In this document: positions 1,803 to 64,000 of the stretch, piece by piece
How positions within the stretch are numbered: position 1 is the first letter of the stretch
How the letters are laid out: every line of letters starts with the position of its first letter
Notes under the pieces: generated by a model
Seen by the model: only the letters and a program-made list of their open reading frames with translations
What the model was told of the DNA's origin: nothing
The model's database searches: none
Program-made: the position numbers and the translations under genes
Assembly (NCBI GenBank): GCA_017439985.1
Contig: JAFSIC010000044.1
Location: 62,001 to 126,000, forward strand
Direction: 5' to 3'
DNA length: 64,000 bases
Origin: Oscillospiraceae bacterium
Lineage (GTDB): Bacteria > Bacillota > Clostridia > Oscillospirales > Ruminococcaceae

Positions 1803-1817
1803 GGGAATCCCTCCTAT

Positions 1818-3674: not shown

Positions 3675-3704
3675 GGAAAACCTCCCTTCGTTTTCAATGA
3701 AATA

Positions 3705-4253: not shown

Positions 4254-4274
4254 TGTTTTGATCCTTTTACTCTC

Positions 4275-8103: not shown

Positions 8104-8170
8104 GTTTTTGTCCTCCAAATCGTGTGTTTTTATGTTGAATTGTCAATTTTTACAATGAATAATCGTGGTA

Positions 8171-8205
8171 TATTCAGTATAGCACAGTATATACTGAATA
8201 TGCAA
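8171..8205 (-). promoter_or_regulatory. nusB promoter overlapped by an 11-bp perfect dyad
   Basis: On the minus strand TTGCAT (8200-8205) and an extended -10 TGCTATACT (-10 TATACT at 8176-8181) are 18 bp apart. TATTCAGTATA (8171-8181) and TATACTGAATA (8190-8200) are a perfect inverted repeat with an 8-bp spacer that covers the -10 and much of the spacer. The dyad is therefore placed like a repressor operator, but no cognate regulator is identified. Confidence 0.65.
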
Positions 8206-8218
8206 TGATTTTATACAT

Positions 8219-8253
8219 AAAAAGCCCCGCTGTTCCAAAGAAAACAGCGAGGC
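8219..8253 (-). terminator. Rho-independent terminator after the Gls24 gene
   Basis: GCCCCGCTGTT (8224-8234) pairs with AACAGCGAGGC (8243-8253), with one G-U style mismatch. In the minus-strand RNA a U-run follows the stem (AAAAA at 8219-8223 on the plus strand). It ends transcription from the gls24 gene before nusB. Confidence 0.85.
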
Positions 8254-8320
8254 TCCGATGTTCGGTTCTTTCCCTCTGATAACGGGGAAAAATCACTGTT
8301 CTTTTGTCAAGCTGCGATGA

Positions 8321-8698
8321 TTATTCAGCGAGAGCTTTCTCGCCTTCAAAGTGGATACCTTCCACGTGAACGTTGACTTTTGTCACGGTGATACCGCACA
8401 TGGTCTGAACGGCGTCTTTGACTGCTTTCTGCAGGTCTTCCGCAACAGCGCGGATCTTACAGCCTGCTTTCACGATAACGCTGATGTCAATGATGGCGCT
8501 GTCGTCGTTCATGTTGATGAGCACCGGTTTGGTGCTGATTTTTTTAATGCTGTTTTTGTTCAGGTTTTTGATTGGGAGACGGGATGCGGTCAGGCAGTGG
8601 ATGCCGTCGATCTCGTCTGCAGCATATTTAGCGATGGCTGCAATAACGTCCTGAGAGATTTTCAGGCTGCCGTTTGGCTGGTTCTGTTCAATATTCAT
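8321..8698 (-). CDS. Asp23/Gls24 family envelope stress protein
   Basis: A 125-residue member of the Asp23/Gls24 (DUF322) family, which in Firmicutes associates with the cell envelope and is linked to alkaline or cell-wall stress. Conserved parts are GSLKISQDVIAAIAKYAADEIDGI, which is split here as GSLKISQDVIAAIAKYA then ADEIDGI, a basic loop, and VKAGCKIRAVAEDLQKAV with a typical VTKVNVHVEGI ending. It is monocistronic: its own promoter lies upstream at 8756-8783 and a terminator follows. The island's left attachment site overlaps that promoter. Confidence 0.9.
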   Translation of the reverse strand: MNIEQNQPNGSLKISQDVIAAIAKYAADEIDGIHCLTASRLPIKNLNKNSIKKISTKPVLINMNDDSAIIDISVIVKAGCKIRAVAEDLQKAVKDAVQTMCGITVTKVNVHVEGIHFEGEKALAE

Positions 8699-8755
8699 AA
8701 GAGCTTCCTCCTTTGATGTACCATTGGAATTGCTGTGAAAGCAATCTATAAGGGT

Positions 8756-8783
8756 ATTATACCATATTTTTTGAAAGAAACAA
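8756..8783 (-). promoter_or_regulatory. gls24 promoter with its -35 inside attL
   Basis: Minus strand: -35 TTGTTT (8778-8783), 16-bp spacer, -10 TATAAT (8756-8761). The -35 hexamer and half the spacer belong to the 18-bp repeat that forms the island boundary. Insertion thus keeps the core promoter but replaces everything upstream of it. Confidence 0.75.
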
Positions 8784-8787
8784 CCGT
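8770..8787. repeat. attL core of the island
   Basis: The 18-bp repeat TTTGAAAGAAACAACCGT is identical to 28276-28293. Here the left half-site GAAAGAAAC and the AACC centre are followed by GTCATGTAA from the element, which does not complete the dyad, as expected for a hybrid site after integration. Confidence 0.75.
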
Positions 8788-8916
8788 CATGTAACTGAAA
8801 ACCTGTGCATTACAACAAATGGCTTAGTCATGCGATATTTTCGCATTGCCATTGAGATACGTTGCGTATAAACTTGGCAAAAGACGGCAAAAGCGAGCAA
8901 AACTTTCCCTTTCAGT

Positions 8917-8937
8917 GGTGTCAAAATTGGTGTCAAA
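8917..8937. repeat. Left arm-type repeats GGTGTCAAA (two copies)
   Basis: GGTGTCAAA occurs at 8917-8925 and 8929-8937, a 12-bp step. The second copy contains the integrase stop codon. Similar repeats occur inside the right end. By analogy to Tn916 DR2 sites these are likely binding sites for the N-terminal arm domain of the integrase. Confidence 0.65.
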
Positions 8938-10129
8938 TCTTTTGAATGTTAGATTGTGTTACCATCAATTCTAACGCCTGTCTGGTCTTCGCCTCGGTAG
9001 CATCAGTGTACACATCCATAGTCATTATAATGGTTGCATGACCCATAATACTCTGTGTGGCTTTTGGGTCAGCACCAGCTTCATACATCCTCGTAGCGAA
9101 AGTATGTCTCAATGTATGGGCGGCCATCTTCTTAATTTGCAAGCTATCTTCCCCATCTCTCTGGAGAAGATATTTGTTACACTTCTTGGCCATGTATGCA
9201 ATCTTGTTGGTGATTGATATTGGACTAGCTGCTTCTCCCTGTGGTGTCATGCAACAGAAATCTGTGTATCCATCAACTACTGCAGGTTGTGTAATATGAT
9301 ATGAGTCTACTAACGCTTTTAGTTGCAAGAAATCATCCACTGTATCACTGCATATTGGAATGGTTCGTAGACTGGTTTTAGTTTTTGGAGTACCAATAAT
9401 AAGCTGTATTGGCTTTGTTTGAGGAACAACCACCATCGTCTTTGTAATAGAGATGCGACGTGTTTCCAAGTCCACATCATTCCAAGTCAGCGCACAAAAC
9501 TCGCCAATACGCAATCCTGTTTTAACTAAGATACACATAATCAAATATGTCATACGACGAGGAGTGTCCTTAGCTGCAAACTGAAACAATTCTCTTTCTT
9601 CATCTACGGTAAGTCCTTCCTTTTTCTTAGCTTCTGGTAAAATACCCGTCAGGACTCGTGACGCAGGATTCTTTAGTAACTGATCATCGTCTACTGCCAG
9701 TTCAAACATTTGGCGCAGGACGGCCACAATACGCTTGATAGCACCGGCAGAATAATTCTGATGCACAAGCTCAACACAGTATTCTCGAACATCAGATTTT
9801 CGTATGTCGGAGATTCTCTTCTTGCCAAATTGTGGTTCAATATGATTGGTGTAAAGTGCTTGATAACTGTAAAAAGTATTAGGCTTCAAGTTAACCTTCA
9901 GCTTGATCCATTTAGTGTACAGGTCTGCAACAGTCATATCAGTATGTATGACGCCATTCAGTATGTCTCTTTGTATAAGCTGTTCTTTCTCTCGTAATTC
10001 TCCAATGGTGGAAGCATAGACGGAATGGCGTTTCCCATTCACATCAGTCCAACGATACATAAAACGATCTTCTTTAGGACGATAGCTTTCACCAGTACGG
10101 AGCTTTACTTTTCCTTTTTGTGTTGCCAT
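8933..10129 (-). CDS. int: Tyrosine recombinase, Tn916-type integrase
   Basis: Catalyses integration and excision of the island. The 398-residue protein has an N-terminal arm-binding domain (residues ~10-55, FMYRWTDVNGKRHSVYAS), a SAM-like core-binding domain (~65-150) and a catalytic domain with all expected residues: R207 (TGLRIGEF), H338 and R341 (HTLRHTF), H364 (MGHA) and the nucleophile Y374 (MDVYTDA). The ribosome binding site AAGGAG precedes the start. It lies at the left end with xis upstream and has its own promoter inside an inverted repeat. It appears intact. Confidence 0.95.
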   Translation of the reverse strand: MATQKGKVKLRTGESYRPKEDRFMYRWTDVNGKRHSVYASTIGELREKEQLIQRDILNGVIHTDMTVADLYTKWIKLKVNLKPNTFYSYQALYTNHIEPQFGKKRISDIRKSDVREYCVELVHQNYSAGAIKRIVAVLRQMFELAVDDDQLLKNPASRVLTGILPEAKKKEGLTVDEERELFQFAAKDTPRRMTYLIMCILVKTGLRIGEFCALTWNDVDLETRRISITKTMVVVPQTKPIQLIIGTPKTKTSLRTIPICSDTVDDFLQLKALVDSYHITQPAVVDGYTDFCCMTPQGEAASPISITNKIAYMAKKCNKYLLQRDGEDSLQIKKMAAHTLRHTFATRMYEAGADPKATQSIMGHATIIMTMDVYTDATEAKTRQALELMVTQSNIQKI

Positions 10130-52334: not shown

Positions 52335-53624
52335 CTATTTTGCTGCTTTTTCCAGCATGATGTTCAGCATCAGACGGTCCAGTTCCACAGAACCTTCGTT
52401 GCCCAGCAGGCAGAAGTTTGCGATGGTCTTGTCAACGTCTTCGTCAACGATACCTTCGTTGGACTGTACGCGGATGCCTTTCATAGCCAGCAGAGCTGCC
52501 TGCCATGCTGCGTTAACGCAGGTAGCGATCTTCAGGGCGCAGTCAGGTTTTGCACCGTCGCAGCACATACCGGTTACGTTACCGATCATGTTGAATACTG
52601 CGTATTCCATTTCTTTTACGCCGCCGCCCAGCATGTAGGTGATTGCTGCTGCGGTACCGGAAGCTGCTACAGTTGCGCCGCAGAATGCGGACAGTTTACC
52701 GAACTGAGCTTTGATGTAGATTGCCATCAGGGAGCTGATGGTTACTGCGCGGAGCAGTTCTTCACGGTTTTTGCCCATGTATTCAGCGATAGCGATTGCC
52801 GGAACGGAGGAAGAGATACCCTGGTTACCGGAACCGGAGTTGGTAACAACAGAGAAGTCTGCGCCTGCCATACGAGCGTCAGCAGCAGCTGCTGCGATCA
52901 TCATGGAGTAGTTGATGCAGTCGTAAGCACGGATGCCCTGTTTGATCTCTTTTTCCATGGATTTACCGATCATCAGACCGTAATCGTTTTTCATACCTTC
53001 GCCGGCGATGATGGAGTTTACTTCAACGGACTGTTTGATGATATCCAGTTTTTCTACATCAACGGTGGTAGCGAATTCATGGATTTTTGCAACGGAGAGA
53101 TACTCGCGAACATCAATGCCTGCTTTGCCGCCTTCAGCGGATGGGCTGCGGGTATCCATGAGAACTTCGCCGTCTTTTTCCAGATAGCAGAGGTTGGTGT
53201 GAGCTTTTGCAACGATGGCTTTGGTCATATGGCCATTGCCTTTTGCGATCACTTCAATGTAGAGTTTTTCCGGATCTTTGGACAGGTCCAGAGAAACTTT
53301 TTTAGCAGCAACCATTGCTTTTGCGGTGTCCAGCTGTTCAGCGGTGATACCGTTGATCACTTCCAGCTGTTTTTCCGGTTTTGCAACGATTGCACCGATT
53401 GCTGCAGCGTATTCGATGCCGGTCAGGCCGGTACCCGGGATGCCGGCAGAGTAAGCGTTTTTGATGATGTTGCCGCTGGCAATGACGTCCAGAGTTTCTA
53501 CGGTTTCGCCCAGTTTTTCAGCAGCAGCTGCTGCAGTCAGAGCGATCGCACCAGGTTCGGTACAGCCGGTAGCCAGAACCATGTTTGCGTTGAGAATTTC
53601 AATAATTTTGTCGTAATTTACCAC
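52335..53624 (-). CDS. UPF0597 / L-cysteine desulfidase-like protein
   Basis: 429 residues with the iron-sulfur enzyme hallmarks ATGCTEPGAIALTAAAAA at the N-terminus, NSGSGNQGISSSVPAIAI in the middle and GMCCDGAKPDCALKI near the end. Relatives include archaeal L-cysteine desulfidase (cysteine to pyruvate, ammonia and sulfide) and E. coli YhaM, involved in cysteine detoxification. The three Cys-rich stretches fit a [4Fe-4S] dehydratase. Monocistronic with its own terminator. Confidence 0.9.
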   Translation of the reverse strand: MVNYDKIIEILNANMVLATGCTEPGAIALTAAAAAEKLGETVETLDVIASGNIIKNAYSAGIPGTGLTGIEYAAAIGAIVAKPEKQLEVINGITAEQLDTAKAMVAAKKVSLDLSKDPEKLYIEVIAKGNGHMTKAIVAKAHTNLCYLEKDGEVLMDTRSPSAEGGKAGIDVREYLSVAKIHEFATTVDVEKLDIIKQSVEVNSIIAGEGMKNDYGLMIGKSMEKEIKQGIRAYDCINYSMMIAAAAADARMAGADFSVVTNSGSGNQGISSSVPAIAIAEYMGKNREELLRAVTISSLMAIYIKAQFGKLSAFCGATVAASGTAAAITYMLGGGVKEMEYAVFNMIGNVTGMCCDGAKPDCALKIATCVNAAWQAALLAMKGIRVQSNEGIVDEDVDKTIANFCLLGNEGSVELDRLMLNIMLEKAAK

Positions 53625-53732
53625 GATTATTCTCCTTCGTTTTCAGAACTTGGCGGGCTTGCGACGCCATTCGCCATAATGTTACAGGTTTCCAACTATT
53701 ATTATGAACTTTTTTCTATGCCTTGTCAATGC

Positions 53733-54005
53733 TTATTTGTGCTCGTCCAAGTACTTTTCCTGATACTTCTTGCTCTCATCCATCATGTTCTGGTAGATGG
53801 ACGCAATGTACGGAGCGTACTCTTCCCCCGCCAGCGCAGAAACTTTGGCAATGACTGCTTTTTCCCGCTCCGGATGGTAGATCGGCAGATCGTGGGCTTT
53901 CTTGTATGCCGCCACATCACGGGTCACTTCCATGCGCTTCACCAGCAGAGCGGTGATCTCTTTATCCAAGCCGTCAATGATAAGACGGATCTCGTCCAGA
54001 TTCAT
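53733..54005 (-). CDS. Chorismate mutase (AroQ type)
   Basis: 90 residues, all-helical: MNLDEIRLIIDGLDKEITAL, VKRMEVTRDVAAYKKAH and ERE at the expected positions identify an AroQ chorismate mutase domain. It converts chorismate to prephenate for Phe/Tyr synthesis. Start at ATG 54005 (AAGGGGAG upstream). Short stand-alone form. Confidence 0.9.
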   Translation of the reverse strand: MNLDEIRLIIDGLDKEITALLVKRMEVTRDVAAYKKAHDLPIYHPEREKAVIAKVSALAGEEYAPYIASIYQNMMDESKKYQEKYLDEHK

Positions 54006-54070
54006 CAAAATCTCCCCTTTTTCCTGTTTGTTTCATCATACTCCAAAGCTTGTGCGCCGTCAAGAACGGA

Positions 54071-54097
54071 AAAAGCCCTCTCTGTCGAGAGGGCTTT
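54071..54097 (-). terminator. Terminator of the 54101 amidase gene
   Basis: GCCCTCTC (54075-54082) and GAGAGGGC (54087-54094), loop TGTC, with A's and T's extending both sides. Confidence 0.9.
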
Positions 54098-54100
54098 GAT

Positions 54101-54841
54101 TCAGATGATATACTCGCTTTTTGCGTAGCCTGTAAAGCCTCCAAAGCCTACCACAGACCAGCCGTTGCCGATTTGGGAATAGACCAGCAGCTTGCTGTTG
54201 TTTGGAATTTGGACTAAAACCTGCGCCTCTGTGCTTGGGAAGCGACGGAGATTCAAGTTCGCGCCGCCGGTATGGACAGTGCCGATACGCAGAGGCTGCG
54301 GCGGGACAAAGGGCACTCCGAAGTAAGCACAGACTCCCTTGACCACCGCCTGGGCGATATTGCCCAGATTGTCGCGGATCCACTGAGCATCCTCCCAGTT
54401 GTCATGGTAGGCAACCTCCAGAAGCACCGCCGGCATATCTGTGCGAACCACTTCCGCCAGCCTCGTTGTGGGCAGGATGCGGATCTCGGAGGGCAGTGGG
54501 TAAATCTGACGCATCTCCTCCGCCAGAAGCTCCACTGCTTTGCGGGAGAAGGCATCGTTGGGATCGTAGTAGACCTCCACGCCCCGAACCTGACCCTCCT
54601 TGCCCTCGCCTGCTGCGTTGGAGTGCAGCGCAAGATGCAGATCGATATCCGAGGCGTTGGACTGGCGGATCACGTCCTGCAGTTCCTGTGTGGCAGGATC
54701 GCTGCGCAGATATGTGATACCGCTGGAAATGAGATAGGGCTCCATTTCATCCGCCAGCAGATTCATGTAGTATTCTTCGTTGCCGCCGCCTGCATAGAGG
54801 TTAAACTCCTGCAGCGAGGGGCTGAGATACAGTCTCGGCAT
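54101..54841 (-). CDS. N-acetylmuramoyl-L-alanine amidase with SH3 domain
   Basis: 246 residues, no signal peptide visible. The amidase_3 fold spans ~1-175: YLSPSLQEFNLYAGGGNEEY, the zinc His and Glu region LALHSNAAGEG and the catalytic PAVLLEVAYHDNWED. A bacterial SH3-type domain is at the C-terminus (ANLNLRRFPSTEAQVLVQIP). Missing a signal sequence, it may act inside the cell (for example during spore formation) or leave by another route. Related enzymes include CwlD and CwlC. Confidence 0.88.
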   Translation of the reverse strand: MPRLYLSPSLQEFNLYAGGGNEEYYMNLLADEMEPYLISSGITYLRSDPATQELQDVIRQSNASDIDLHLALHSNAAGEGKEGQVRGVEVYYDPNDAFSRKAVELLAEEMRQIYPLPSEIRILPTTRLAEVVRTDMPAVLLEVAYHDNWEDAQWIRDNLGNIAQAVVKGVCAYFGVPFVPPQPLRIGTVHTGGANLNLRRFPSTEAQVLVQIPNNSKLLVYSQIGNGWSVVGFGGFTGYAKSEYII

Positions 54842-54852
54842 AGTCCTCCCTC

Positions 54853-54960
54853 CTAACGACGCGGCATTTTCGGCTTATCGAAAGCGGGGTTAAAGGCATA
54901 GAAGTTCTTGCTGTCCAGCCGCTCCTGTGTCAGACGGAGCGCTTCAGCGAAATGGGCAGT
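54853..54960 (-). pseudogene. C-terminal fragment of a lost gene
   Basis: An open stretch in frame with the ABC ATPase stop codon reads AHFAEALRLTQERLDSKNFY then AFNPAFDKPKMPRR and ends in TAG at 54853-54855, followed by the GGAGGGAGG ribosome binding site of the amidase gene. It has no start codon. It looks like the last 35 codons of a gene whose body was replaced by the transporter operon. Family not recognised. Confidence 0.6.
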
Positions 54961-55620
54961 TTAAGTGCTTTTCTTCAAAATATCCACAATTTGTCCGTTG
55001 GACATGGCGATGATGCGGTCGGACATACTGAGTGCTTCCGGACGGTCGTGGGTGACCATGATCGTGGTCATATTGAAATCGCGATGGAGCTTCAGCACCA
55101 GCTCGCGCATTCCCTGACGCAGTTCCTCGTCCAGCGCGGAAAAAGGCTCATCCAGAAGCAGCAGTTTCGGCTTTGCAGCCAGCGCTCTGGCCAGCGCAAC
55201 TCGCTGCTGCTGTCCGCCCGACAACTGATGGATCCGGCGCTTTCCATAGCCGGCCAGCTGTACTTTTTCCAGAAGCTCCCGCGCTGTCTGCAGGCGCTGT
55301 GCTTTGGGAAGCCGCTGCATCTTCAGCGGAAAGGCAATGTTGTCCTCCACATTCATATTGGGAAACAGACGCATATCCTGAAAAACGATGACTGTTCCTC
55401 TTTTATGAATGGGCATCTGCGTGATGTCCTGCCCATCCAGAAAAATCTGTCCCTGTTCCACCGGAAGGATACCTGCGATGGCTTTCAGCAGGGTGCTTTT
55501 GCCGCAGCCGGAAGGGCCCTGCAAAGACAGGAACTCTCCCTGCGCCGCCTGCAGACTGATATCGGGCAGGATGCAGTCTTTTCCTATATTCACTGTTACA
55601 TGTTCAATATTCAGTTTCAT
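54961..55620 (-). CDS. ABC transporter ATP-binding protein, YnjD-like
   Basis: 219 residues with Walker A GPSGCGKS, the signature LSGGQQQRVALARALAAKP and Walker B LLLLDEPFSALD. It energises the two permeases upstream, and its start overlaps theirs. Together with the YnjB-type binding protein it forms a YnjBCD-like importer. Substrate unknown. Confidence 0.93.
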   Translation of the reverse strand: MKLNIEHVTVNIGKDCILPDISLQAAQGEFLSLQGPSGCGKSTLLKAIAGILPVEQGQIFLDGQDITQMPIHKRGTVIVFQDMRLFPNMNVEDNIAFPLKMQRLPKAQRLQTARELLEKVQLAGYGKRRIHQLSGGQQQRVALARALAAKPKLLLLDEPFSALDEELRQGMRELVLKLHRDFNMTTIMVTHDRPEALSMSDRIIAMSNGQIVDILKKST

Positions 55621-56417
55621 CGGGTTTCCTCTCCCCTCTCAAGATGATGGATCAACGCTTCAAACAGGAAGAAAATCAGCAATGCCGAGCCTACAAAGAC
55701 CACAGAATATACTGCGGAAAGAGCACGGTCACCGCTTTGGATGTAAGGAACCAGGACGAGAGCCAAGGTTTTTACCCGTCCGCCGCCTATCAGCAGCGTG
55801 CTGAAATACTGGCTGTAGGACAAAATAAAGCCCATGCTCATGGAGGACAGGATCCCCGGCAGCAGAGCCGGTAATGTCACTTGGAAAAAAGCCGTGAACG
55901 GTCCTGCTCCCAGTACCATAGCCTGCTCCTCCATGCGTTGACCTACCGCACGGGTCACATCAGTCATGATGGTAATGCAGTACGGTACGGCGGCGATCAG
56001 GTGGACGATCACAACACCGACTAATGTATCGCTGAGTCCAAGGCGGATCAGCGTGATCTGGATGCCCATGGCAAAAACGGTGCCCGGAACCAAAAGCGGC
56101 AGGAAGCTGCCTATACGCACGAAGCTTTTTCCTTTGAAGTCATAAAACTCTGTGGCTCTTGCTGTGAGGATGCCCACAACAGTAGCTAAGAATGCTACAA
56201 TGGCTGCCAGCGTGATACTGCTCAGGAGAAGATCCGGCAGCTTTGCCGAACCGAAGAACAGCTCCTGCAGAGTACGCAGCGTGTAGCTTTCCGGCAGGAG
56301 ATTCGGCCAGGGCCAGCGGCCTGTAACGCTCCACAACAGCAGTACCGCGATGGGCAGCAGAATGCTGACACCTGTGATCAATAAAATCAGCTTTAGAAAG
56401 GTCTGTTGCTTCATCAT
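55617..56417 (-). CDS. ABC transporter permease, second subunit
   Basis: 266 residues with six membrane segments and the inner-membrane EAA-type loop (EEQAMVLGAGPFTAFFQVTL). It overlaps the ATPase gene and the first permease gene by 4 bp each, so all three are cotranslated. Confidence 0.92.
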   Translation of the reverse strand: MMKQQTFLKLILLITGVSILLPIAVLLLWSVTGRWPWPNLLPESYTLRTLQELFFGSAKLPDLLLSSITLAAIVAFLATVVGILTARATEFYDFKGKSFVRIGSFLPLLVPGTVFAMGIQITLIRLGLSDTLVGVVIVHLIAAVPYCITIMTDVTRAVGQRMEEQAMVLGAGPFTAFFQVTLPALLPGILSSMSMGFILSYSQYFSTLLIGGGRVKTLALVLVPYIQSGDRALSAVYSVVFVGSALLIFFLFEALIHHLERGEETR

Positions 56418-57283
56418 TCCCTACCTCCTGTTTGTTTCAGCAGCTTGCGGGTCAGCAAGGCATAGAGCAAGGCCATTGCCAGCGACAGGAACAGAATCAC
56501 GCCGTTCATCGCCATGGCATACGGTCTGTCACGGAGTTCCGGGCTGGTGTAGGCCATATACGCCTGCACCGGCAGAGCTTTCGGAACGGTGGTGCCCAGG
56601 AGGAAAGGCAGTTCATAGCCGCCAAATGCGAAGATAAAGATAATGAGAAATGCTTTCAGCGCGGCAGGAAGGCTCAGTGGCAGCGTGATTTGGAAGAAAC
56701 TGCGCCACGGCGATGCCCCGAGGTTTTCCGCCGCTTCCCCCAATGTACTGCTGATACTGCTCATCAGTGCGAGAACAAAATAGGCAACGAAAGGGATCTC
56801 TTTCCAAAGGTAAGCCGCGATGGCTGCGCCGTAGTTTTCCGTGTAGAGCAAGGCAGGAAACTGATTAAAGTCTATAATAAAGCCCAGCATATAAGCGATG
56901 CGGGCGAAGAGCCCTGTCTGCGAGAACAGACTAATAACAAAAACCGCAACCACTGCATGGGGCATGAGAATGGGCAGGCGCACCAGATAGAGCAGCTCGC
57001 CCTTGCTGTGTCCGCGCTTCACCAAAGCATAGCACAGTAGTACACCCAGCATTGTCGCCAACAGTGCGGACTGCAGGGCAATGCGCAGGCTGACTTCCAA
57101 TGCAGAGAGAAATTCCTCCTGCTGAAAGACTGCTTTGTAGTAATCCAAGGTCAGCGTCGTCAGACCGAAAGCGGGAATGTAGCCCAGACTTTGCAGCAGT
57201 ACATTCCAGATGGAAACAAGAATCAGCGCCATAATGACGAAAAACGGCAGCAGTAATAAATATGGAGTATAGGATCGTTTCAT
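56414..57283 (-). CDS. ABC transporter permease, first subunit
   Basis: 289 residues from ATG 57283 (GGGAGGTATCT upstream; the longer frame has none). Six membrane segments and the EAA loop AAENLGASPWRSFFQITLPL. A hairpin at 57304-57329 separates it from the binding-protein gene upstream. Confidence 0.92.
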   Translation of the reverse strand: MKRSYTPYLLLLPFFVIMALILVSIWNVLLQSLGYIPAFGLTTLTLDYYKAVFQQEEFLSALEVSLRIALQSALLATMLGVLLCYALVKRGHSKGELLYLVRLPILMPHAVVAVFVISLFSQTGLFARIAYMLGFIIDFNQFPALLYTENYGAAIAAYLWKEIPFVAYFVLALMSSISSTLGEAAENLGASPWRSFFQITLPLSLPAALKAFLIIFIFAFGGYELPFLLGTTVPKALPVQAYMAYTSPELRDRPYAMAMNGVILFLSLAMALLYALLTRKLLKQTGGRE

Positions 57284-57303
57284 AGATACCTCCCGACATA
57301 GAA

Positions 57304-57329
57304 AAAACGGTGCAAACATGCACCGTTTT
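57304..57329 (-). terminator. Intra-operon attenuator-like hairpin
   Basis: AAAACGGTGC (57304-57313) and GCACCGTTTT (57320-57329), loop AAACAT, with a U-run in the minus-strand RNA. It lies between the binding protein and permease genes of one operon, so it probably lets only part of the transcripts continue, giving binding protein in excess. Confidence 0.8.
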
Positions 57330-57349
57330 CTATTGTAGCGTATTTTATT

Positions 57350-58567
57350 CTACTTGCCAACTACTTCGTTGAGCCAAATTTCCTCGATGATCGGAACGAG
57401 GCTTGCAGGCATTTCCGGCAGGCGGTGTGCCAGCAGTTCTGCCTGAGAGAGTACGCCCTGACCAAGGTCTACTGCACCAAAGGCGGCCTTTTCGTCAGCG
57501 CTCAGCTTGTCGGTGGCAACGACAGGCAGTTCTTTCAGCTGTGCGTACTGAGTCAGCTGGATGTCCGCGGAGATGATCTCGTTGATGACAACCATTGCAC
57601 CGGCTTTGTTTGGTGCATCGTAGGCAATCGCCATGTAGTTGGTGTTGCCGATGGTGCCGTTGTCAAAGACGAAAGTGCGGGTGGTATCGGTATAGATACC
57701 CTGATCAATGCCGGTAGCCACGGAGAATGGGCTGTAACTCATGTTCATCACTACTTCGCCGTCAGCAAACATGGCATCCACTTTGGTGGAGGATTCCGGG
57801 AAGGATTTGCCCTGATTCCACAGGTATGGGTTCAACTGGCGGAGGTAATCCAGCGCCGGCTCGATGGCGGTTTTCACGGTATCATAGTCAGCTTCCATGG
57901 TCTGGAACTGCTCCCAGCCGCAGAGATCGTAAATGATGTTGCGGACAAAGGCAGAACCGGTGAAGTCCGGCAGAGCCGGATAGGTCACTTTGCCTTCGTA
58001 TTTCTTGCAGAATTCCATGAATTCTGCAGCATTGGCAGGAGTTTCCGGAGTCACAGCACTGTCATTGAACAGGACCATCTGCGCTTTTGCGTAAGGAGCT
58101 TCGTAGCCGTCGATCGGCATGCAGAAGTCGTTGAGAGTTTCCGGATCGTCCAGATCAATGTAGTTTTCCATGTTTGGAAGTTTATCGGTAAATGGGCCGT
58201 AGAGCAGACCGTTTTCCTTGGCAGAATAGAAGTTCTCGCCGTTGATCCAGATCATATCGATGCTGCCTTTGGTGGCATTGGCTTGTTTTTCACCGGAAAG
58301 TTTGGCAAGAATATCGTTGATATCCATGCCTACCACTTCCAGAGTAATGTCGTATTTGTCCTTCACCTGCTCGGCAACAGTGGTGTTGAGCCAGTTGTTG
58401 CGGTTTTCGTCGCCGCCCCAGCCGTAAAAAGTGACGGTGCTGCCTTTTGCAGCTTCCACGATTTCATCCCAGCTTGCATTCTGCGGATCGATGCTCTGCT
58501 TGGAAGCGGAGCAGCCGCTCAGGCTCATTATGCCTGCCAGCAGCAGAGCCAGCCATTTCTTCATCAT
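57350..58567 (-). CDS. ABC transporter solute-binding lipoprotein, YnjB-like
   Basis: 405 residues with a lipoprotein signal (LALLLAGIMSLSGCSAS, cysteine ~20). The mature part matches the COG4134 YnjB type: TVTFYGWGGDENRNNWLNT and WINGENFYSAKENGLLYGPF, TGSAFVRNIIYDLCGW. It captures an unknown small molecule for the YnjBCD-type permease. First gene of the operon; promoter divergent from the nucleoside hydrolase gene. Confidence 0.92.
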   Translation of the reverse strand: MMKKWLALLLAGIMSLSGCSASKQSIDPQNASWDEIVEAAKGSTVTFYGWGGDENRNNWLNTTVAEQVKDKYDITLEVVGMDINDILAKLSGEKQANATKGSIDMIWINGENFYSAKENGLLYGPFTDKLPNMENYIDLDDPETLNDFCMPIDGYEAPYAKAQMVLFNDSAVTPETPANAAEFMEFCKKYEGKVTYPALPDFTGSAFVRNIIYDLCGWEQFQTMEADYDTVKTAIEPALDYLRQLNPYLWNQGKSFPESSTKVDAMFADGEVVMNMSYSPFSVATGIDQGIYTDTTRTFVFDNGTIGNTNYMAIAYDAPNKAGAMVVINEIISADIQLTQYAQLKELPVVATDKLSADEKAAFGAVDLGQGVLSQAELLAHRLPEMPASLVPIIEEIWLNEVVGK

Positions 58568-58596
58568 AAAATTCCCTTCCTTTTCTTATGATTAGT

Positions 58597-58760
58597 CTGT
58601 GCTAACACAGTTCTTTATTAGAATAGAGGAAAGGAGCTAAATCGTCAAGCTGTTCCGCTTGAAATGAACACTTCATTGAAATAATCAATCAAATTTCCGA
58701 TTTTTAGGATTTTTTCCTATGGTGAGAACAATGGACAAGCCGGGTTGAATCGGGTATTAT
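58597..58760. promoter_or_regulatory. Divergent promoters of the transporter and nucleoside hydrolase operons
   Basis: Minus strand: TTGACG (58643-58648), 17-bp spacer, TATTCT (58620-58625), then the dyad CTGTG-CTAA-CACAG (58597-58610) between -10 and start, placed like an operator. Plus strand: TGGACA (58732-58737), 17-bp spacer, TATTAT (58755-58760). The shared gap suggests coordinated control. Confidence 0.75.
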
Positions 58761-58790
58761 GAAGATATATTGCAATCCTTGGAGGTCATT

Positions 58791-59678
58791 ATGCTGAAAA
58801 AAGTGATTTTTGACTGCGACAATACCATGGGCATCGACGGTTACCCGATGGACGATGCGCTGGCTTTTCTTTATGTGCTGGGAAATCGGGACAAAGTGGA
58901 TCTGCTGGGCTTTATCTGCACCTTCGCTAACGGCACAGCGGCGCAGGTTTACGAAGCATCCCGACAACTGCTGCAGGAGGTCGGCTGCTCTGCCCTGCCG
59001 CTGCTCAAAGGCGCTGAAGCAAACGAAGATCCCCGTTCCGAAGCGGCACAGTTTATCGTGGATATGGCAAATCGTTACCCCGGCGAAGTATCTGTGCTCG
59101 CCATCGGTTCCATGACCAATCTCTACGGCGCATGGCTCATCGATCCGCAGATTTTCGACAAACTGGAGCGCTGTGTCCTCATGGGCGGTATCACCGAGAA
59201 GCTGTACACCCACGGCGTTCACTGCCCGGAACTGAACTTCTCCATCAACGCCCATGCTTCCGCTGAGGTCTTTACCCACGGCAAGAATCTTTCCATTATC
59301 ACCGGCAACAACTGTCTGTCGGTCTCCTACCTGCCGAAAGAGGAATTCATGGAGAAAATGGAGATCGACAAGCGCCCTGTCAGTGCCTATGTTGCCCGCA
59401 AATGCGGCTACCGCTTCGATTGCCGCAGGGAAATTTACGGCGAAGAAGGCTCCTACTGCTGGGATGCGATCGCTGCGGCATATCTGCTCTACCCCGAGCT
59501 GTTCGAAGACCATTTGACCGCCTGTGACATCTCCGAGGAGCATCTACAGGATGGTTCCCTTATGCCTTGTGAAAACGGCAAAACCATCCTCAACCTGCCT
59601 GTTGCCAAAGATGCTGCCGCATTCCGCCGCAATCTCTACGAAAGCTGGCTGAAACTGGATTTCGTTGTGGAGGACTAA
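58791..59678 (+). CDS. Inosine/uridine-preferring nucleoside hydrolase family protein
   Basis: 295 residues from ATG 58791 (GGAGG 5 bp upstream). The N-terminal calcium-binding motif is VIFDCDNTMGIDGYPMDDAL, a variant of the usual DTDxGxDD with the acidic residues kept. AIGSMTNLYGA, CVLMGGI and the C-terminal YCWDAIAAAYLL (Asp-containing) are conserved. It would split a ribonucleoside into base and ribose. First gene of the plus-strand operon. Confidence 0.9.
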   Translation: MLKKVIFDCDNTMGIDGYPMDDALAFLYVLGNRDKVDLLGFICTFANGTAAQVYEASRQLLQEVGCSALPLLKGAEANEDPRSEAAQFIVDMANRYPGEVSVLAIGSMTNLYGAWLIDPQIFDKLERCVLMGGITEKLYTHGVHCPELNFSINAHASAEVFTHGKNLSIITGNNCLSVSYLPKEEFMEKMEIDKRPVSAYVARKCGYRFDCRREIYGEEGSYCWDAIAAAYLLYPELFEDHLTACDISEEHLQDGSLMPCENGKTILNLPVAKDAAAFRRNLYESWLKLDFVVED

Positions 59679-59679
59679 G

Positions 59680-60345
59680 ATGAAACGTGCTGTCATTTGC
59701 TTTACCCGTGTTCCCAAAGCGGGACAGACAAAGACACGTCTGCTGCCGATTCTGTCTCCACAGCAATGTGCCGATCTCCACACTGCCTTTTTGCAGGACT
59801 TGGCACAGCTGTATGAATGTTTCCCTGCCGACTTGTTTGTTGCCTATACGGCTGACCCCGACTGGGAACAGCTGAAGAAGATTTTCCCTACGGCGAAGGC
59901 TTTCTTCCCTCAGGATGGTGAGGACTTGGGAGCTAAAATGCTCCACGCCATGGAGAATGTGTTGACTTTGGGCTATGAAAGCTGTATCCTCACGGGCAGT
60001 GACCTGCCGCTGCTCTCCTCTGCACAGCTGGAAAGCGGATTTCGTGCATTGGAACAAGCCGATGTAACGCTCGGCCCCACCCCCGACGGCGGCTATTATC
60101 TGGTGGGTTCCAAGAAACCTTGCCCTGCGCTGTTCCGCAGTCAGACTTACGGCGGCTCCACCGTCTGGGAAAATACCCTCGCCGCCGCGGAACAAGCCGG
60201 CTTCTCCGTTCTGCCCGCTCTCCCCTGCGACGATGTGGACAATCCCGACGACCTGCGGTCTCTGTGGAAAACCATTGCCGGAAACGGCAGTTATACTGCC
60301 CGTTTCCTTGAACAAATCCGGAAAGAAGGTGTGTCCCTGTGCTAA
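59680..60345 (+). CDS. TIGR04282 family transferase (DUF2064, CofC-like)
   Basis: 221 residues starting MKRAVICFTRVPKAGQTKTR at ATG 59680, right after the nucleoside hydrolase stop. The nucleotidyl-/glycosyltransferase fold is shown by TKTRLLPILSPQQCADLH, ILTGSDLPLLSSAQLE and LGPTPDGGYYLVGSKKP. TIGR04282 is annotated as an arsenosugar-type or rSAM/selenodomain-associated transferase and usually travels with TIGR04283, as here. It probably activates a phosphorylated metabolite or transfers a sugar. Confidence 0.9.
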   Translation: MKRAVICFTRVPKAGQTKTRLLPILSPQQCADLHTAFLQDLAQLYECFPADLFVAYTADPDWEQLKKIFPTAKAFFPQDGEDLGAKMLHAMENVLTLGYESCILTGSDLPLLSSAQLESGFRALEQADVTLGPTPDGGYYLVGSKKPCPALFRSQTYGGSTVWENTLAAAEQAGFSVLPALPCDDVDNPDDLRSLWKTIAGNGSYTARFLEQIRKEGVSLC

Positions 60346-61361
60346 ATCGACCTGAGTTTCAATCTTATGTACAAAGTGAATGCTTTTTGCGCCCGCTGGG
60401 CTTGCCTATGGGTACCGAGCTGTCCTTTGCTCTGTTGGGACAGGGTGAGTACAATCAGAATTTCAGCTTTATCCATCCACTGACGCAGCAGAAGCTGGTT
60501 CTGCGCATCAACACCGGCAGCCAGATGCACTTGGAAAACCAAATCGAATATGAATTTTCCGCTCTCAAAAATCTGGAAGCCAGCGGCAGAACACCGAAGG
60601 CTCTCTTCTGCGATAACAGCAAGTCTATTCTTCCTTACGGTACCCTTGTCATGGAATGGCTGCCCGGTCGGCCACTGGATTATCGCCGCGATTTACAGAA
60701 AGCGGCAGAGATTTTTGCCGACATTCACAGCACGCCTGTGCCTGCCGGGCATCAGCTCATGGAGCCGGCTCACCCTGCCAAGGCGATCTATGATGAGTGC
60801 ATGGAAATGTTCACACATTATTTTGACTGGGAACAGGCTGATCCTGTCATTGTGCGTCTGCTGGAAGAACTTATCTCCGAAATCGGCAGGCTGCCTCTCT
60901 GTGATGGCTCCTCTGCTCCAAAGTGCATCGTTAATACGGAGGTCAACTCCGGTAACTTCCTCATCAATAAAGAAGGAAACAGTTATCTCATCGACTGGGA
61001 AAAACCACTGCTCTCCGAAGCGGCACAGGACCTGGGACATTTCCTCGTTCCTACCACAACGTTCTGGAAAACCGATGTAATTTTGACCCCTGATGAAATT
61101 CGCGGCTTTGTGGAACTTTATGAGAAAGCCATGAACGGGCGCATGGATACTTCCTGTCTGTCGGAGCGTCTGCCGCTGTTCTTCACGGTCACCTGCCTGC
61201 GCGGTGTGACCTGGTGCGCTATGGCTCTGCGTGAGTATTCTCAGCCGGACCGCCCGCTCAGCAACGCCGACACACTGGCAAAAATCAAGGACTACATCAA
61301 TGAGGATTTCCTGCGGAAACTTCTGAACAACTATGTCCGCAAGAATTTCCTGCGAGGTTAG
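60339..61361 (+). CDS. APH/choline-kinase-like phosphotransferase
   Basis: 340 residues. Kinase-fold parts: LGQGEYNQNFSFIHPLTQQK (nucleotide loop), LVLRINTGSQ (Lys-containing strand), VNTEVNSGNFLINKEGNSYL with the Asn, and LIDWEKPLLSEAAQDLGHF carrying the DxE-type metal Asp (LIDWE). The catalytic Asp of the classical HGDLHxxN motif is replaced by NTEVNSGN, so activity may be altered. It overlaps the previous gene by 7 bp. Substrate may be the sugar or nucleoside product of the pathway. Confidence 0.85.
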   Translation: MLNRPEFQSYVQSECFLRPLGLPMGTELSFALLGQGEYNQNFSFIHPLTQQKLVLRINTGSQMHLENQIEYEFSALKNLEASGRTPKALFCDNSKSILPYGTLVMEWLPGRPLDYRRDLQKAAEIFADIHSTPVPAGHQLMEPAHPAKAIYDECMEMFTHYFDWEQADPVIVRLLEELISEIGRLPLCDGSSAPKCIVNTEVNSGNFLINKEGNSYLIDWEKPLLSEAAQDLGHFLVPTTTFWKTDVILTPDEIRGFVELYEKAMNGRMDTSCLSERLPLFFTVTCLRGVTWCAMALREYSQPDRPLSNADTLAKIKDYINEDFLRKLLNNYVRKNFLRG

Positions 61362-61362
61362 T

Positions 61363-62040
61363 ATGAAAATTTCTCTCATCATCCCCATTTATAATGAAAG
61401 CGCCAAAATCGCCGCCTGTCTGGAGCAGCTGGAGAAACTCCCCGGCGACTGGGAAATTCTTTTTGCCGATGGCGGCTGCAGCGACGACACCTTGACACAA
61501 ATCGGTGGAAAATATCCTGTCATCGCCTGCCCGAAAGGACGCGCCAAGCAGATGAACTGTGCAGCGAAGCACGCCACTTCCGATGTGATCTGGTTTGTAC
61601 ACTGCGACAGTCGGCTGCCTGTGGATGCTCACGCACAAATTTCCGATGCGATTGAAAAAGGCGCGCAGTTCGGCTGCTTCCACATTGCTTTTGACTACAA
61701 CGGACCGTTCATGGGCTGCAACACCTACCTGTCCAACCGCCGTGCTAAAAAAAGTCACATCGCTTTCGGCGATCAGGGTATCTGGATGCAGCGAAAACTG
61801 TTTCTTCAGCAGGGCGGCTTCCCCGATCTGCCCATCATGGAGGACTACGAACTGTCCCGCCGCATGAAACAACAGAAAATCCCATTGCATGTGCTGCCGG
61901 GATGCATCGTCACCTCCGGGCGACGCTACGAAAAACGCTTCCCCCTGTGGACCATGTGGCAAATGTTCTGGCTGCGCTGCCTGTACCGTGCCGGCGTGGA
62001 CATCAATGAAATCGCCCGCCGCTACAAAGATATTCGCTAA
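61363..62040 (+). CDS. TIGR04283 family glycosyltransferase (GT2)
   Basis: 225 residues from ATG 61363 (MKISLIIPIYNESAKIAACL), 1 bp after the kinase gene. GT2 signatures: ILFADGGCSDDTL, CPKGRAKQMNCAAKHATSD, WFVHCDSRLP (DxD-type) and MEDYELSRRMKQQ. Partner of TIGR04282. It may transfer a sugar or related group in the same pathway. Confidence 0.92.
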   Translation: MKISLIIPIYNESAKIAACLEQLEKLPGDWEILFADGGCSDDTLTQIGGKYPVIACPKGRAKQMNCAAKHATSDVIWFVHCDSRLPVDAHAQISDAIEKGAQFGCFHIAFDYNGPFMGCNTYLSNRRAKKSHIAFGDQGIWMQRKLFLQQGGFPDLPIMEDYELSRRMKQQKIPLHVLPGCIVTSGRRYEKRFPLWTMWQMFWLRCLYRAGVDINEIARRYKDIR

Positions 62041-62042
62041 AC

Positions 62043-62072
62043 AAAAAAGCCTCGGTCTTTACCGAGGCTTTT
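62043..62072. terminator. Bidirectional terminator between convergent operons
   Basis: AAGCCTCGGT and ACCGAGGCTT arms with loop CTTT (62047-62071), A's and T's outside. It overlaps the 3' end of the Fe-S protein gene. Confidence 0.92.
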
Positions 62073-62847
62073 GATATTTCTGTTGAAATGTTGTACGGAA
62101 GCGATTCCCCCAGCCGCGCTGAACACTGGCTCCAAAGAGCAGCTCCAGCAGATGAAGACAGTCTCTGCCTTCGCCTCGGAACGCTCCCAGGCAGCCTTCA
62201 CAGCTGCTGAGGATCCTGCGCTCCTGCGGAAATTCACTGAGTCGGCGCTGACAAACTTCCGCCGACTTTTCCGGACGCAGCGTATGCAGCATGTGGAAGT
62301 TTCCGCAGCAGATGGTGTTTGCGCCGTTGTGTGTCGGTTCAATGACATCGCAGCCGCTGAGTTTCAGAAGCTGACGCACGGCATTCTGCTGCTCCGCGTC
62401 GCGCTTTGTGACGCAGGGGTCATGCCAGATAAAGGAACCCTCTGTGTGCTGAATATCCTCTTTATCACAAAGCTGAGCCAATAACGGCCACACAGAATAA
62501 ACATCGCAGGCATGCAGTTGTTTCAGTTGGATCGTGCAGTTGGGGCAAGCGGTATAGATGCGCTGTACCCCCTGCTGTTTCAGCAAAGTACGGAGTCGCT
62601 CCTGCCCTTTCTTTGCCTGCTGAGGAAAAAGATACGCACTGGGCTGTCCGCAGCAGCAGGTGCAGAGCTGGATCGTCGGCTCTGCACGACGGAGGACAGC
62701 AAGCGTTTTCTCCAGAAGTTCTCCGTCCAGATTCAGCAGCGCACAGCCGGGCCAGAACAAAGCTTCCGCTTTGGGAACGTGCATCAGTAAGCTTGAAAAA
62801 GACAAGCCCTGATGGATTTTCATACCTGTCAGTCCGGATCGTGCCAT
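62059..62847 (-). CDS. CCG-domain (Fe-S)-binding protein
   Basis: 262 residues with two CCG modules as in heterodisulfide reductase subunit B and related proteins: first LFWPGCALL with CTCCCGQP and ACPNCTIQL, second HDPCVTKRD with TICCGNFHML and SSCEGCLGA. These would bind two cysteine-rich clusters. The start overlaps the TVP38 stop by 1 bp, so it is cotranscribed with the membrane proteins. It may deliver electrons to or shuttle thiols for the neighbouring enzymes (inference). Confidence 0.88.
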   Translation of the reverse strand: MARSGLTGMKIHQGLSFSSLLMHVPKAEALFWPGCALLNLDGELLEKTLAVLRRAEPTIQLCTCCCGQPSAYLFPQQAKKGQERLRTLLKQQGVQRIYTACPNCTIQLKQLHACDVYSVWPLLAQLCDKEDIQHTEGSFIWHDPCVTKRDAEQQNAVRQLLKLSGCDVIEPTHNGANTICCGNFHMLHTLRPEKSAEVCQRRLSEFPQERRILSSCEGCLGAFRGEGRDCLHLLELLFGASVQRGWGNRFRTTFQQKYQKPR

Positions 62848-63548
62848 TATTTCTGCGCCTTCTTTGCCTGATAGGTGTCATACATCTGCTTGAGGATGGT
62901 GCTGAAAATGCCCAGACCAAAGAGACAAAGCAGACCGGTCACCAGCCATCTTGCACCTCCTGTCAGCATACCTCCAACGTAGGAGTACACAATGGTTGCC
63001 GGCAGCTGGCCGATTCCGGTCGCGAGGAAGAACGGCAGGAATTTGATTGGAGTGAGACCTGCAAAGTAGCTGACCGCATCGAAGGAAACAAAAGGAAGCA
63101 GACGGCAGACCAGAATGGTTTTGCTGCCGTATTTTTCAAAGTAGCCCTCTACGGCTGCCAGCGCACCCTTGCCTGCGAATTTTTCCACCACATCACGACC
63201 CAGTGCGCGTGCGATGAGGAAGCAAAGGGCTGCACCCACCATTGCGGAGCTCCAGGACAGGATAGCGCCCTGCCACCAGCCGAAAATGGCAGCATTGGAA
63301 ACGGTGATGAGGAAGGCCGGCAGCGGTGCCAGCAGAGAAGAAAAGACCATCAGGCTGAAGGATACCACCACGGCAAATGCGCCAAAGGAACGGATATACT
63401 CGATGACGGCATCTACGTTGGCCGAACCCAGCACGGAGGTCACCGTGTCCACGGTATTTTTCACAGAAGGTACACAGAAGTACAGCAGTACCGCCAGAAG
63501 AATCAGCGCTACGGTGATCCAGCGTCCATAATTATGTTTCTTTGTCAT
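62847..63548 (-). CDS. TVP38/TMEM64 (SNARE-associated, DedA-related) membrane protein
   Basis: 233 residues from ATG 63548 (MTKKHNYGRWITVALILLAV), preferred because the longer upstream frame runs into the previous gene. Six or so membrane segments with the VTT core: GWWQGAILSWSSAMVGAALC, RLLPFVSFDAVSYFAGLTP and GIGQLPATIVYSYVGGML. TVP38-type proteins are DedA relatives, some implicated in lipid scrambling or metal uptake. First of two similar proteins in tandem, overlapping by 17 bp. Confidence 0.9.
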   Translation of the reverse strand: MTKKHNYGRWITVALILLAVLLYFCVPSVKNTVDTVTSVLGSANVDAVIEYIRSFGAFAVVVSFSLMVFSSLLAPLPAFLITVSNAAIFGWWQGAILSWSSAMVGAALCFLIARALGRDVVEKFAGKGALAAVEGYFEKYGSKTILVCRLLPFVSFDAVSYFAGLTPIKFLPFFLATGIGQLPATIVYSYVGGMLTGGARWLVTGLLCLFGLGIFSTILKQMYDTYQAKKAQK

Positions 63549-64000
63549 TGTTTTCGCTCTCCTTGTCGTTGTTTGTTGAGGATGGAAGAAGTTTCTTACC
63601 CAGCACTGTTGTAACTGCCAACAGAAGCAAAAGCAAGGCAATGGCAAGCCAGAAGGATGCCGATGTCACATCCAATACCTTGTCGCCGATGTTGATGAAG
63701 GCCAATGTACCGGGGATGATGCCCAATGCCGAAGCCAACAGATAAGAACGAAAGCTCATCTCTGTCAGACCGAAGCTGTAATTGATCAGATTATAGGGTA
63801 CGGCAGGAATCAGGCGCAGAATGATCAGCAGAAGAAAGCCCTGCTTCCCTGCTGCAGTGTTCAGGCGCCGCTGCCAGTCGGGACTGAGCTTTCGCTGTAG
63901 CATGTTCCGTACCTGTTCTCGTCCGAAGGAACGAGCCATGAAGAACATCAGGCTGCAGTTGAGGACAGCTCCCAGAAAGGTGTAGATACTGCCGCGAAAC
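63532..64000 (-). CDS. Second TVP38/TMEM64 membrane protein (5' end beyond the window)
   Basis: The last 156 residues are visible, entering the window with FRGSIYTFLGAVLNCSLMFF. It has the VTT segment LLIILRLIPAVPYNLINYSF and FRSYLLASALGIIPGTLAFI, then a Ser/Glu/Asp-rich polar tail (SENNDKET). A paralogue of the gene at 62847; the start lies to the right of the window. Confidence 0.88.
   Translation of the reverse strand, partial: FRGSIYTFLGAVLNCSLMFFMARSFGREQVRNMLQRKLSPDWQRRLNTAAGKQGFLLLIILRLIPAVPYNLINYSFGLTEMSFRSYLLASALGIIPGTLAFINIGDKVLDVTSASFWLAIALLLLLLAVTTVLGKKLLPSSTNNDKESENNDKET

Follow-up and report, generated by a model that had tools for sequence, protein, structure and literature searches.

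A conserved, modular gene set of gut bacteria that may feed a nucleoside-derived sugar into an activation-and-transfer pathway

Many gut bacteria carry a conserved gene set centred on a kinase of the APH/choline-kinase fold, a TIGR04282 protein and a TIGR04283 glycosyltransferase. We analyzed it starting from a 64,000-nucleotide stretch of DNA (hereafter the window; G000:C25:62001-126000) of an Oscillospiraceae bacterium (assembly GCA_017439985.1, contig JAFSIC010000044.1), whose genome, G000, amounts to 1.68 Mb in 63 contigs and is 94% complete. In the window, a YnjBCD-type importer diverges from a run of four genes encoding a nucleoside hydrolase, the TIGR04282 protein, the kinase and the TIGR04283 glycosyltransferase. 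The gene set is a conserved, modular locus, in which the kinase and the two transferases usually travel together, while the importer and the hydrolase are strongly linked and behave as a pair. Our preferred explanation, to which we give slightly less than an even chance, is that the locus supplies an activation-and-transfer pathway with a sugar derived from a nucleoside, as an import-fed variant of the TIGR04282/TIGR04283 sugar-transfer pathway. The interpretation of the initial annotation, according to which an imported nucleoside-like compound is cleaved by the hydrolase and its ribose rebuilt by the kinase and the transferases, is in this form partly supported. No description of the gene set was found in the literature searched, the coverage of which was mostly outside subscription journals.

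Conservation of the Kinase-Centred Cluster

An alignment-based scan of genomes found 234 relatives of the window kinase. The best 80 of these 234 loci were read, and for this reason the sample leans to window-like kinases. Among these 80, the relatives belong to Oscillospiraceae, Lachnospiraceae, Peptostreptococcaceae, Tissierellaceae, Eggerthellaceae and others; since the window gene set recurs in several families of Clostridia and in Eggerthellaceae, it is more than a chance assembly. Locus statistics refer to the 40 of the 80 loci that span at least 20.4 kb each ("wide" loci), with gene content determined by profile search; p-values, for loci (Fisher) and genomes alike, ignore kinship. TIGR04282 and TIGR04283 were each found in 37 of the 40 wide loci, followed by TVP38 (35), the CCG Fe-S protein (33), rhodanese (31), YnjB (22), the hydrolase (18), a C-GCAxxG-C-C protein (14) and the arsenosugar radical SAM protein ArsS (8). 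Both TIGR domains lie in a single frame in 28 of the 80 kinase loci. The initial annotation had made its proposal dependent on the co-occurrence of these genes elsewhere, and in the genomes surveyed they do co-occur widely. In G003, of the same genus as the window, one co-directional run comprises TVP38, TVP38, TIGR04282, kinase, TIGR04283, CCG, YnjB, two permeases, YnjD, rhodanese, TVP38 and rhodanese, without the hydrolase.

A small unnamed membrane protein recurs in 17 of the 80 kinase loci (L124:6406-6966 and 16 others); the L124 copy, the only example scanned, gave no Pfam match. Three kinase-less TIGR04282/TIGR04283 loci (L048, L051, L055) have a BioB-like radical SAM gene, named by eye, near TVP38.

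The Importer and the Hydrolase as a Pair

The hydrolase is present in 18 of the 22 wide kinase loci with YnjB and in none of the 18 without it (p 7e-8); over all 80 loci YnjB was found in 43, the hydrolase in 36 and both in 33. A search with PF01156, the nucleoside hydrolase family, found members in 22 of 39 kinase genomes. The pairing extends beyond the kinase locus: a hydrolase of the locus type (defined below) lies outside this locus, as far as it was read, in five genomes, and in all four that were read (G429, G433, G434 and G436; G443 was left out) it stands in a separate YnjB-permease-permease-ATPase-hydrolase run, the ATPase being named by eye, while in G232 the importer-hydrolase pair lies about 15 kb from the kinase. 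In the sample of 299 genomes of the phylum, used for the genome-wide tests below, YnjB occurs in 26 genomes, the kinase in nine and both in eight (p 9e-9).

Phylogeny agrees with this picture. The window YnjB falls into a clade of 43 rows (support 100), of which 37 are hydrolase-linked and six kinase-linked, and which contains none of the 16 rows lacking both the hydrolase and the kinase. Other hydrolase-linked rows lie outside this clade, and the YnjB tree requires at least four changes between the linked and unlinked states, so that a single accident does not account for the pairing. Among independent pairs drawn on the kinase tree, importer and hydrolase change together in 4-7 of 10 and in opposite directions in 0-1.

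The G232 hydrolase is spread over two adjacent open frames (L146, 8795-9676), probably a broken copy or a sequencing error. In G434 the separate importer-hydrolase run is followed by a microcompartment operon (L242) with genes for a class II aldolase, an aldehyde dehydrogenase, a shell protein, a phosphate propanoyltransferase and a lactaldehyde-reductase-like protein. A 5-deoxypentose as the substrate was considered and dropped, these genes standing beside the G434 run and not beside that of G433.

The Hydrolase Clade

The window hydrolase belongs to a distinct group. In all 41 locus-type rows (the window and 40 others) the leaving-group His that precedes the last Ca-binding Asp in group I nucleoside hydrolases is replaced by Trp (W-D in place of H-D), whereas generic rows mostly have H-D, one of the 36 (L191) also having W-D. 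The locus-type rows further share a seven-residue insert in the metal-binding loop, the first loop Asp being missing in two of the 41. On the hydrolase tree, a branch with support 100 separates 52 locus-type rows from the 36 generic rows. Rows outside 250-420 amino acids, eight generic rows (wrong frame or poor alignment) and one duplicate of the window's row were left out of this tree; 15 of the 52 locus-type rows came from family searches, were labelled by signature before the tree was built and in part repeat existing rows. Restricted to the first 40 residues, a stricter pattern for the loop picks up 43 of the 52, because some frames start upstream.

Trp before the last Ca-binding Asp marks the purine-specific group II hydrolases, where it stacks on the purine, as stated in the review PMC8910321. 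As Trp precedes the last metal-binding Asp in the window hydrolase as well, its sequence points to a purine nucleoside as the substrate. The initial annotation had left room for a universal housekeeping hydrolase, which this enzyme is not: the window's gene is the only PF01156 gene of the 94%-complete G000 at E 1e-15, and at the same threshold the family occurs in 29 of 101 phylum genomes.

ArsS as an Alternative Module

The wide kinase loci differ in what accompanies the kinase and the transferases. ArsS is absent from all 22 with YnjB and present in eight of the 18 without it (p 6e-4), each of these eight also having C-GCAxxG-C-C; over all 80 loci ArsS occurs 11 times, never with YnjB and once with the hydrolase (L125). 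On the kinase tree the YnjB and ArsS states need at least five changes, and three states together need 11, where shuffling gives a mean of 19.7. A genome may nevertheless have importer and ArsS at separate sites; this is the case in G429 (L244 for the importer, L080 for ArsS), in G425 and perhaps in G428, where two ArsS matches are partial. At a locus the two look like alternatives and not like partners: the importer and the hydrolase stand in the place that ArsS and C-GCAxxG-C-C occupy in related clusters. From this shared position it follows that both modules probably supply one and the same core, the importer and hydrolase from outside and ArsS from inside the cell.

L125 brings ArsS and the hydrolase together. 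On this single 6.9-kb contig of a metagenome-assembled genome, all on one strand, lie TIGR04282 (cut by the contig end), the kinase, C-GCAxxG-C-C, ArsS (439.4 bits, cut-off 300), the methyltransferase ArsM (187.7 bits to NF008823, below the cut-off of 263), TIGR04283 and the hydrolase. Its kinase groups with those of the importer-type loci L096 and L137 (support 99), as does its hydrolase (99), with identities of 72% (L137) and 67% (L096), against 38% to the window hydrolase; the modules thus look swapped within a single clade. Most simply, L125 suggests one hydrolase chemistry for two kinds of substrate, a nucleoside taken up from outside or the product of ArsS.

According to the initial annotation, the unseen ArsS or ArsM lies to the right of position 64000 or else the pathway is different; no radical SAM, ArsM or selenoprotein gene was recognised in the 18.7 kb between this position and the contig end, among frames of at least 130 amino acids (L002) or, in the last 0.8 kb, at least 60, a search that did not extend to small or TGA-interrupted genes. 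Nine of the right-flank frames were scanned with Pfam and none proved to be any of these. G000, at its 94% completeness, gave no match to ArsS (TIGR04167) at E 1e-30. The supposed link to the ArsS route is thereby not borne out in the window's own genome, but it is realised in one locus, L125.

Predicted Reactions

The TIGR04282 protein exceeds the Pfam threshold for CofC (PF01983; 35.3 vs. 22 bits) and stays below that of the NCBIfam F420 CofC model TIGR03552 (49.7 vs. 105 bits). Its matches in the Protein Data Bank (PDB) include a putative nucleotide-diphospho-sugar transferase (3cgx, E 4.3e-28) and MM_2497 (2i5e, E 2.5e-4), which we take to be CofC. By its sequence it looks more like a CofC-type nucleotidyltransferase than like a glycosyltransferase, and therefore the chain is better read as activation and transfer than as the rebuilding of a sugar. 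For the TIGR04283 protein the PDB offers a weak match, dolichol monophosphate mannose synthase (E 0.0016). The kinase exceeds the cut-off of no NCBIfam model; its weak relatives include a choline kinase (PDB 4r77, E 0.087), thiamine kinase and APH(9). In APH-type kinases the catalytic Asp is part of an HxD motif, in place of which all 81 rows of the kinase alignment have (N/S)TE (NTE in the window).

The pathway would proceed as follows. YnjBCD would import a nucleoside or a similar N-glycoside, from which the locus-type hydrolase would cleave off the base, a purine if the Trp signature is a guide. The freed sugar would be phosphorylated by the APH-fold kinase, most simply at C1, as by AmgK, which is an anomeric kinase; the CofC-like TIGR04282 protein would then join the sugar phosphate to a nucleotide, like MurU, the uridylyltransferase that acts after AmgK. 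Finally, an acceptor, which might be a lipid, would receive the sugar through TIGR04283. The TVP38 proteins might conceivably move the lipid product or substrate, and the CCG and rhodanese proteins might provide thiol redox chemistry. We infer all these steps, in contrast to the linkage and the clade membership, which are observed.

A more far-reaching version appears to us rather doubtful: gut Clostridia would salvage a 5'-modified purine nucleoside, perhaps metalloid-bearing and released by ArsS-carrying neighbours, the dedicated hydrolase would strip off the purine, and the modified pentose would be activated and attached to a lipid or polymer, with importer plus hydrolase and ArsS as interchangeable sources for one sugar-transfer core.

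Weighing of the Explanations

Several observations weigh against an import-fed activation-and-transfer pathway. Both transferases are missing from three of the 40 wide kinase loci. The eight kinase loci read from the 299-genome sample have both in five cases and TIGR04282 only in one (G232), while in G199 and in G323 the 19 kb examined contain neither (G199 has a TIGR04282/TIGR04283 pair elsewhere); conversely, TIGR04283 exceeds its cut-off in 18 of the 299 genomes, six with the kinase and 12 without it. As to the importer, 16 YnjB loci of kinase-less genomes were read out of 18 (G289 and G317 were left out), and 15 of them, three being shorter than 9 kb, have no hydrolase; the ancestral cargo of YnjBCD therefore need not be a nucleoside. 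Nor does a hydrolase stand beside YnjBCD in Escherichia coli. The hydrolase is also missing from four of the 22 wide importer loci (three of these genomes have no locus-type hydrolase by score), and in G240, where hydrolase and kinase are clustered together, a genome-wide search for YnjB at E 1e-40 found nothing. The wide loci alone give only three independent pairs on the kinase tree, and the mutual exclusion of importer and ArsS is not significant on 10 independent pairs (opposite in 1-3, the same in 0). Because Glu occupies the position of the catalytic Asp in all 81 kinase rows, phosphorylation of a sugar is not assured. As regards the purine, the residues concerned vary among hydrolases (PMC10526354), and a check of the beta3-alpha3 loop, by eye only, did not show the second Trp of group II enzymes.

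At L045 of G240 (1769-4813 and 8146-9012), the hydrolase-kinase pair has, at a distance of about 3.3 kb, ECF-type-looking importer genes (named by eye), which are a possible replacement for YnjBCD.

One alternative, which we consider doubtful, is an arsenosugar-type salvage, in which a 5'-arsenical adenosine (an ArsS-type product) is imported and an arsenosugar or arsenosugar lipid is the end product. L125, where ArsM, ArsS, the hydrolase, the kinase, TIGR04282 and TIGR04283 are united, is what would be expected in this case, and G000 does have an ArsM (NF008823, 294.9 bits, cut-off 263), albeit unlinked to the window locus and with no other arsenic gene recognised by eye beside it. Among the 299 genomes ArsM is present in 67, and more commonly in those with TIGR04283 (9/18 vs. 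58/281, p 0.007) or the kinase (5/9 vs. 62/290, p 0.03), subject to the same disregard of kinship; it lies within 10 kb of TIGR04283 for two of the 18 over-cut-off genes (G264 and G399, neither with the kinase). ArsM is missing, on the other hand, from three of the eight sampled genomes with kinase and importer, and was not found at E 1e-25 in any of the eight genomes with ArsS and kinase (G415-G422). Since ArsM was not found there, the substrate of their ArsS may be an external arsenical or some other compound, and for the same reason arsenic, whose involvement is suggested, is to be regarded as a lead and not as a result.

The ArsM gene of G000 (G000:C35:51911-52669; L206, L241) has an in-frame TGA in a CxxGA-like motif and encodes a probable selenoprotein ArsM; the ArsM matches in G001, G002 and G003 have one TGA each as well. 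In G415-G422, ArsS stands beside the kinase cluster (L081, L089, L091, L104, L108, L110, L111, L114).

It is unlikely, in our opinion, that the importer belongs to the TVP38/CCG/rhodanese set and carries a sulfur or selenium compound, the hydrolase and kinase using an internal nucleoside. E. coli K-12 keeps ydjX-ydjY-ydjZ-ynjA-ynjB-ynjC-ynjD-ynjE together, TVP38 is found in 10 of the 16 kinase-less YnjB loci, 15 of these 16 lacking the hydrolase, and in G240 the hydrolase does without YnjB, all of which agrees with such a division. Yet neither TVP38 nor CCG occurs around any of the four separate YnjBCD-hydrolase runs, for each of which 14-20 kb was read, and the window-type YnjB clade excludes every row that has neither hydrolase nor kinase. 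SelD is enriched in genomes with TIGR04283 (18/18 vs. 185/281, p 0.001) and with YnjB (24/26 vs. 179/273, p 0.004), but it is present in 203 of the 299 genomes anyway. Selenium as the main theme was rejected: since SelD is so common overall, its presence in nine of nine kinase genomes (p 0.06) is not telling. All 18 hand-picked genomes (17 with the kinase and G001 without it) have SelD too. No function is given for YdjX or YdjZ in the accessible parts of PMC10127716 and PMC7818093, on DedA/TVP38 proteins.

Plain nucleoside scavenging, with importer and hydrolase supplying ribose and purine and the transferases co-inherited as neighbours by chance, seems to us quite unlikely. It would suit L149, where YnjBCD and a locus-type hydrolase, without a kinase, stand among genes for ADP-ribosylglycohydrolase, transketolase, a TIM-barrel isomerase-like protein, AFOR (aldehyde:ferredoxin oxidoreductase) and ComA, as well as the four genomes with the pair away from the kinase locus. 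It accords poorly with the position of the hydrolase inside the cluster in 18 of 22 wide importer-type loci and with the window, where it leads the transferase run at a 1-bp gap; moreover, among the 30 PF01156 genes read of 39 in 101 genomes only four are of the locus type, all in kinase genomes. Finally, an amino-alcohol route (choline-like import, a choline-kinase-like kinase, a TIGR04282 protein making a CDP-alcohol as LicC does in the LicA-LicC precedent, and the hydrolase as a side gene) recalls the weak kinase relatives named above but is improbable, since 37 of the 40 wide loci include a family-2 glycosyltransferase and the hydrolase goes with the importer.

The Window Locus and its Surroundings

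All the genes named in the initial annotation are open frames at the places given there (Table 1), and the importer does diverge from the four-gene run, whose spacings of +1, -7 and +1 bp confirm the overlaps and short gaps reported. With YnjB above the NF008633 cut-off, two permeases and an ATPase, the transporter is a member of the YnjBCD importers. The TVP38 pair, the Fe-S protein and the rhodanese adjoin it as in the ydjXYZ-ynj module, the hydrolase-transferase run lying between. The CCG protein covers positions 418-644 of the 759 of NF045663 at 117.4 bits, below the cut-off of 530. The upstream region shared by the two units holds sigma-70-like sites at 58732-58760 (+, 10/12) and 58648-58620 (-, 9/12), which are consensus matches only. 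No Rfam match was obtained at E 0.5 over 53500-64000. A plasmid origin was rejected, the 7-kb core having no plasmid match. Farther right, genes for a molybdopterin oxidoreductase, a 4Fe-4S partner and a MobA-like neighbour were noticed by eye (L002:8356-10919).

Table 1. Genes and other features of the locus (window coordinates unless a locus is named)
Feature	Position	Strand	Evidence or remark
YnjD-like ABC transporter ATPase	54961..55620	-	PF00005 132.9 bits; 4 bp overlap with next gene
YnjC-like permease 2	55617..56417	-	PF00528 45.8 bits
YnjC-like permease 1	56414..57319	-	PF00528 47.9 bits
YnjB-type substrate-binding lipoprotein	57350..58567	-	NF008633 440.6 bits, cut-off 203
Shared divergent upstream region, 223 bp	58568..58790	.	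promoter-like sites on both strands
Nucleoside hydrolase	58791..59678	+	PF01156 120.3 bits, gathering score 34.2
TIGR04282 protein, CofC-like nucleotidyltransferase fold	59680..60345	+	TIGR04282 176.5 bits, cut-off 134
APH/choline-kinase-fold kinase	60339..61361	+	PF01636 56.2 bits, gathering score 23.2
TIGR04283 family-2 glycosyltransferase	61363..62040	+	TIGR04283 228.9 bits, cut-off 182
12-bp stem, terminator-like on both strands	62045..62072	.	between converging units
CCG (heterodisulfide-reductase-like) Fe-S protein	62059..62847	-	PF02754 59 bits
TVP38/VTT membrane protein	62847..63548	-	PF09335 91.8 bits for longer frame 62847-63647
Second TVP38/VTT protein	63532..64000, on to ~64227 (L002:1533-2228)	-	PF09335 102.1 bits
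Four-domain rhodanese lipoprotein	L002:2431-4029		right of window, divergent, beyond second TVP38

Significance

The proposed scheme gives a testable reaction order for TIGR04282 and TIGR04283, which NCBIfam names as arsenosugar biosynthesis glycosyltransferases, and a testable role for YnjBCD, which in E. coli K-12 is annotated as a putative importer. Should the two modules prove interchangeable, identifying what one of them acts on would also identify the substrate of the other. It would then be clear whether modified nucleosides, possibly organoarsenicals from other microbes, are taken up and conjugated by gut bacteria.

Comparison with Known Systems

The locus resembles the E. coli ydjXYZ-ynjABCDE genes in bringing together two TVP38/DedA proteins, an Fe-S protein, YnjBCD and rhodanese. 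It differs in that TIGR04282, TIGR04283, the kinase and the hydrolase are not annotated in the 17 kb shown of E. coli, whose Fe-S protein is the ferredoxin-type YdjY and not a CCG protein and whose YnjB is very distant on the YnjB tree (end branch 3.5). With the arsenosugar genes ArsM-ArsS-TIGR04282-TIGR04283 it shares both transferases, each above its NCBIfam cut-off, and L125 joins all of these genes; the window genome, in contrast, lacks an ArsS match and has the importer and hydrolase instead, plus the kinase. The hydrolase is like the group II purine-specific enzymes in the Trp directly before the last metal-binding Asp and unlike them in the seven-residue metal-loop insert, the five best PDB matches shown all having H-D. 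As for AmgK and MurU, to which the window kinase and TIGR04282 protein are presumably akin in fold, the likeness consists in an APH-fold kinase beside a protein of the nucleotidyltransferase fold, although the sugar is different and the window run also includes a glycosyltransferase. The succession of kinase, nucleotidyltransferase and glycosyltransferase would reproduce an activation order like that of AmgK and MurU, whose sugar salvage is the subject of PMC5371407.

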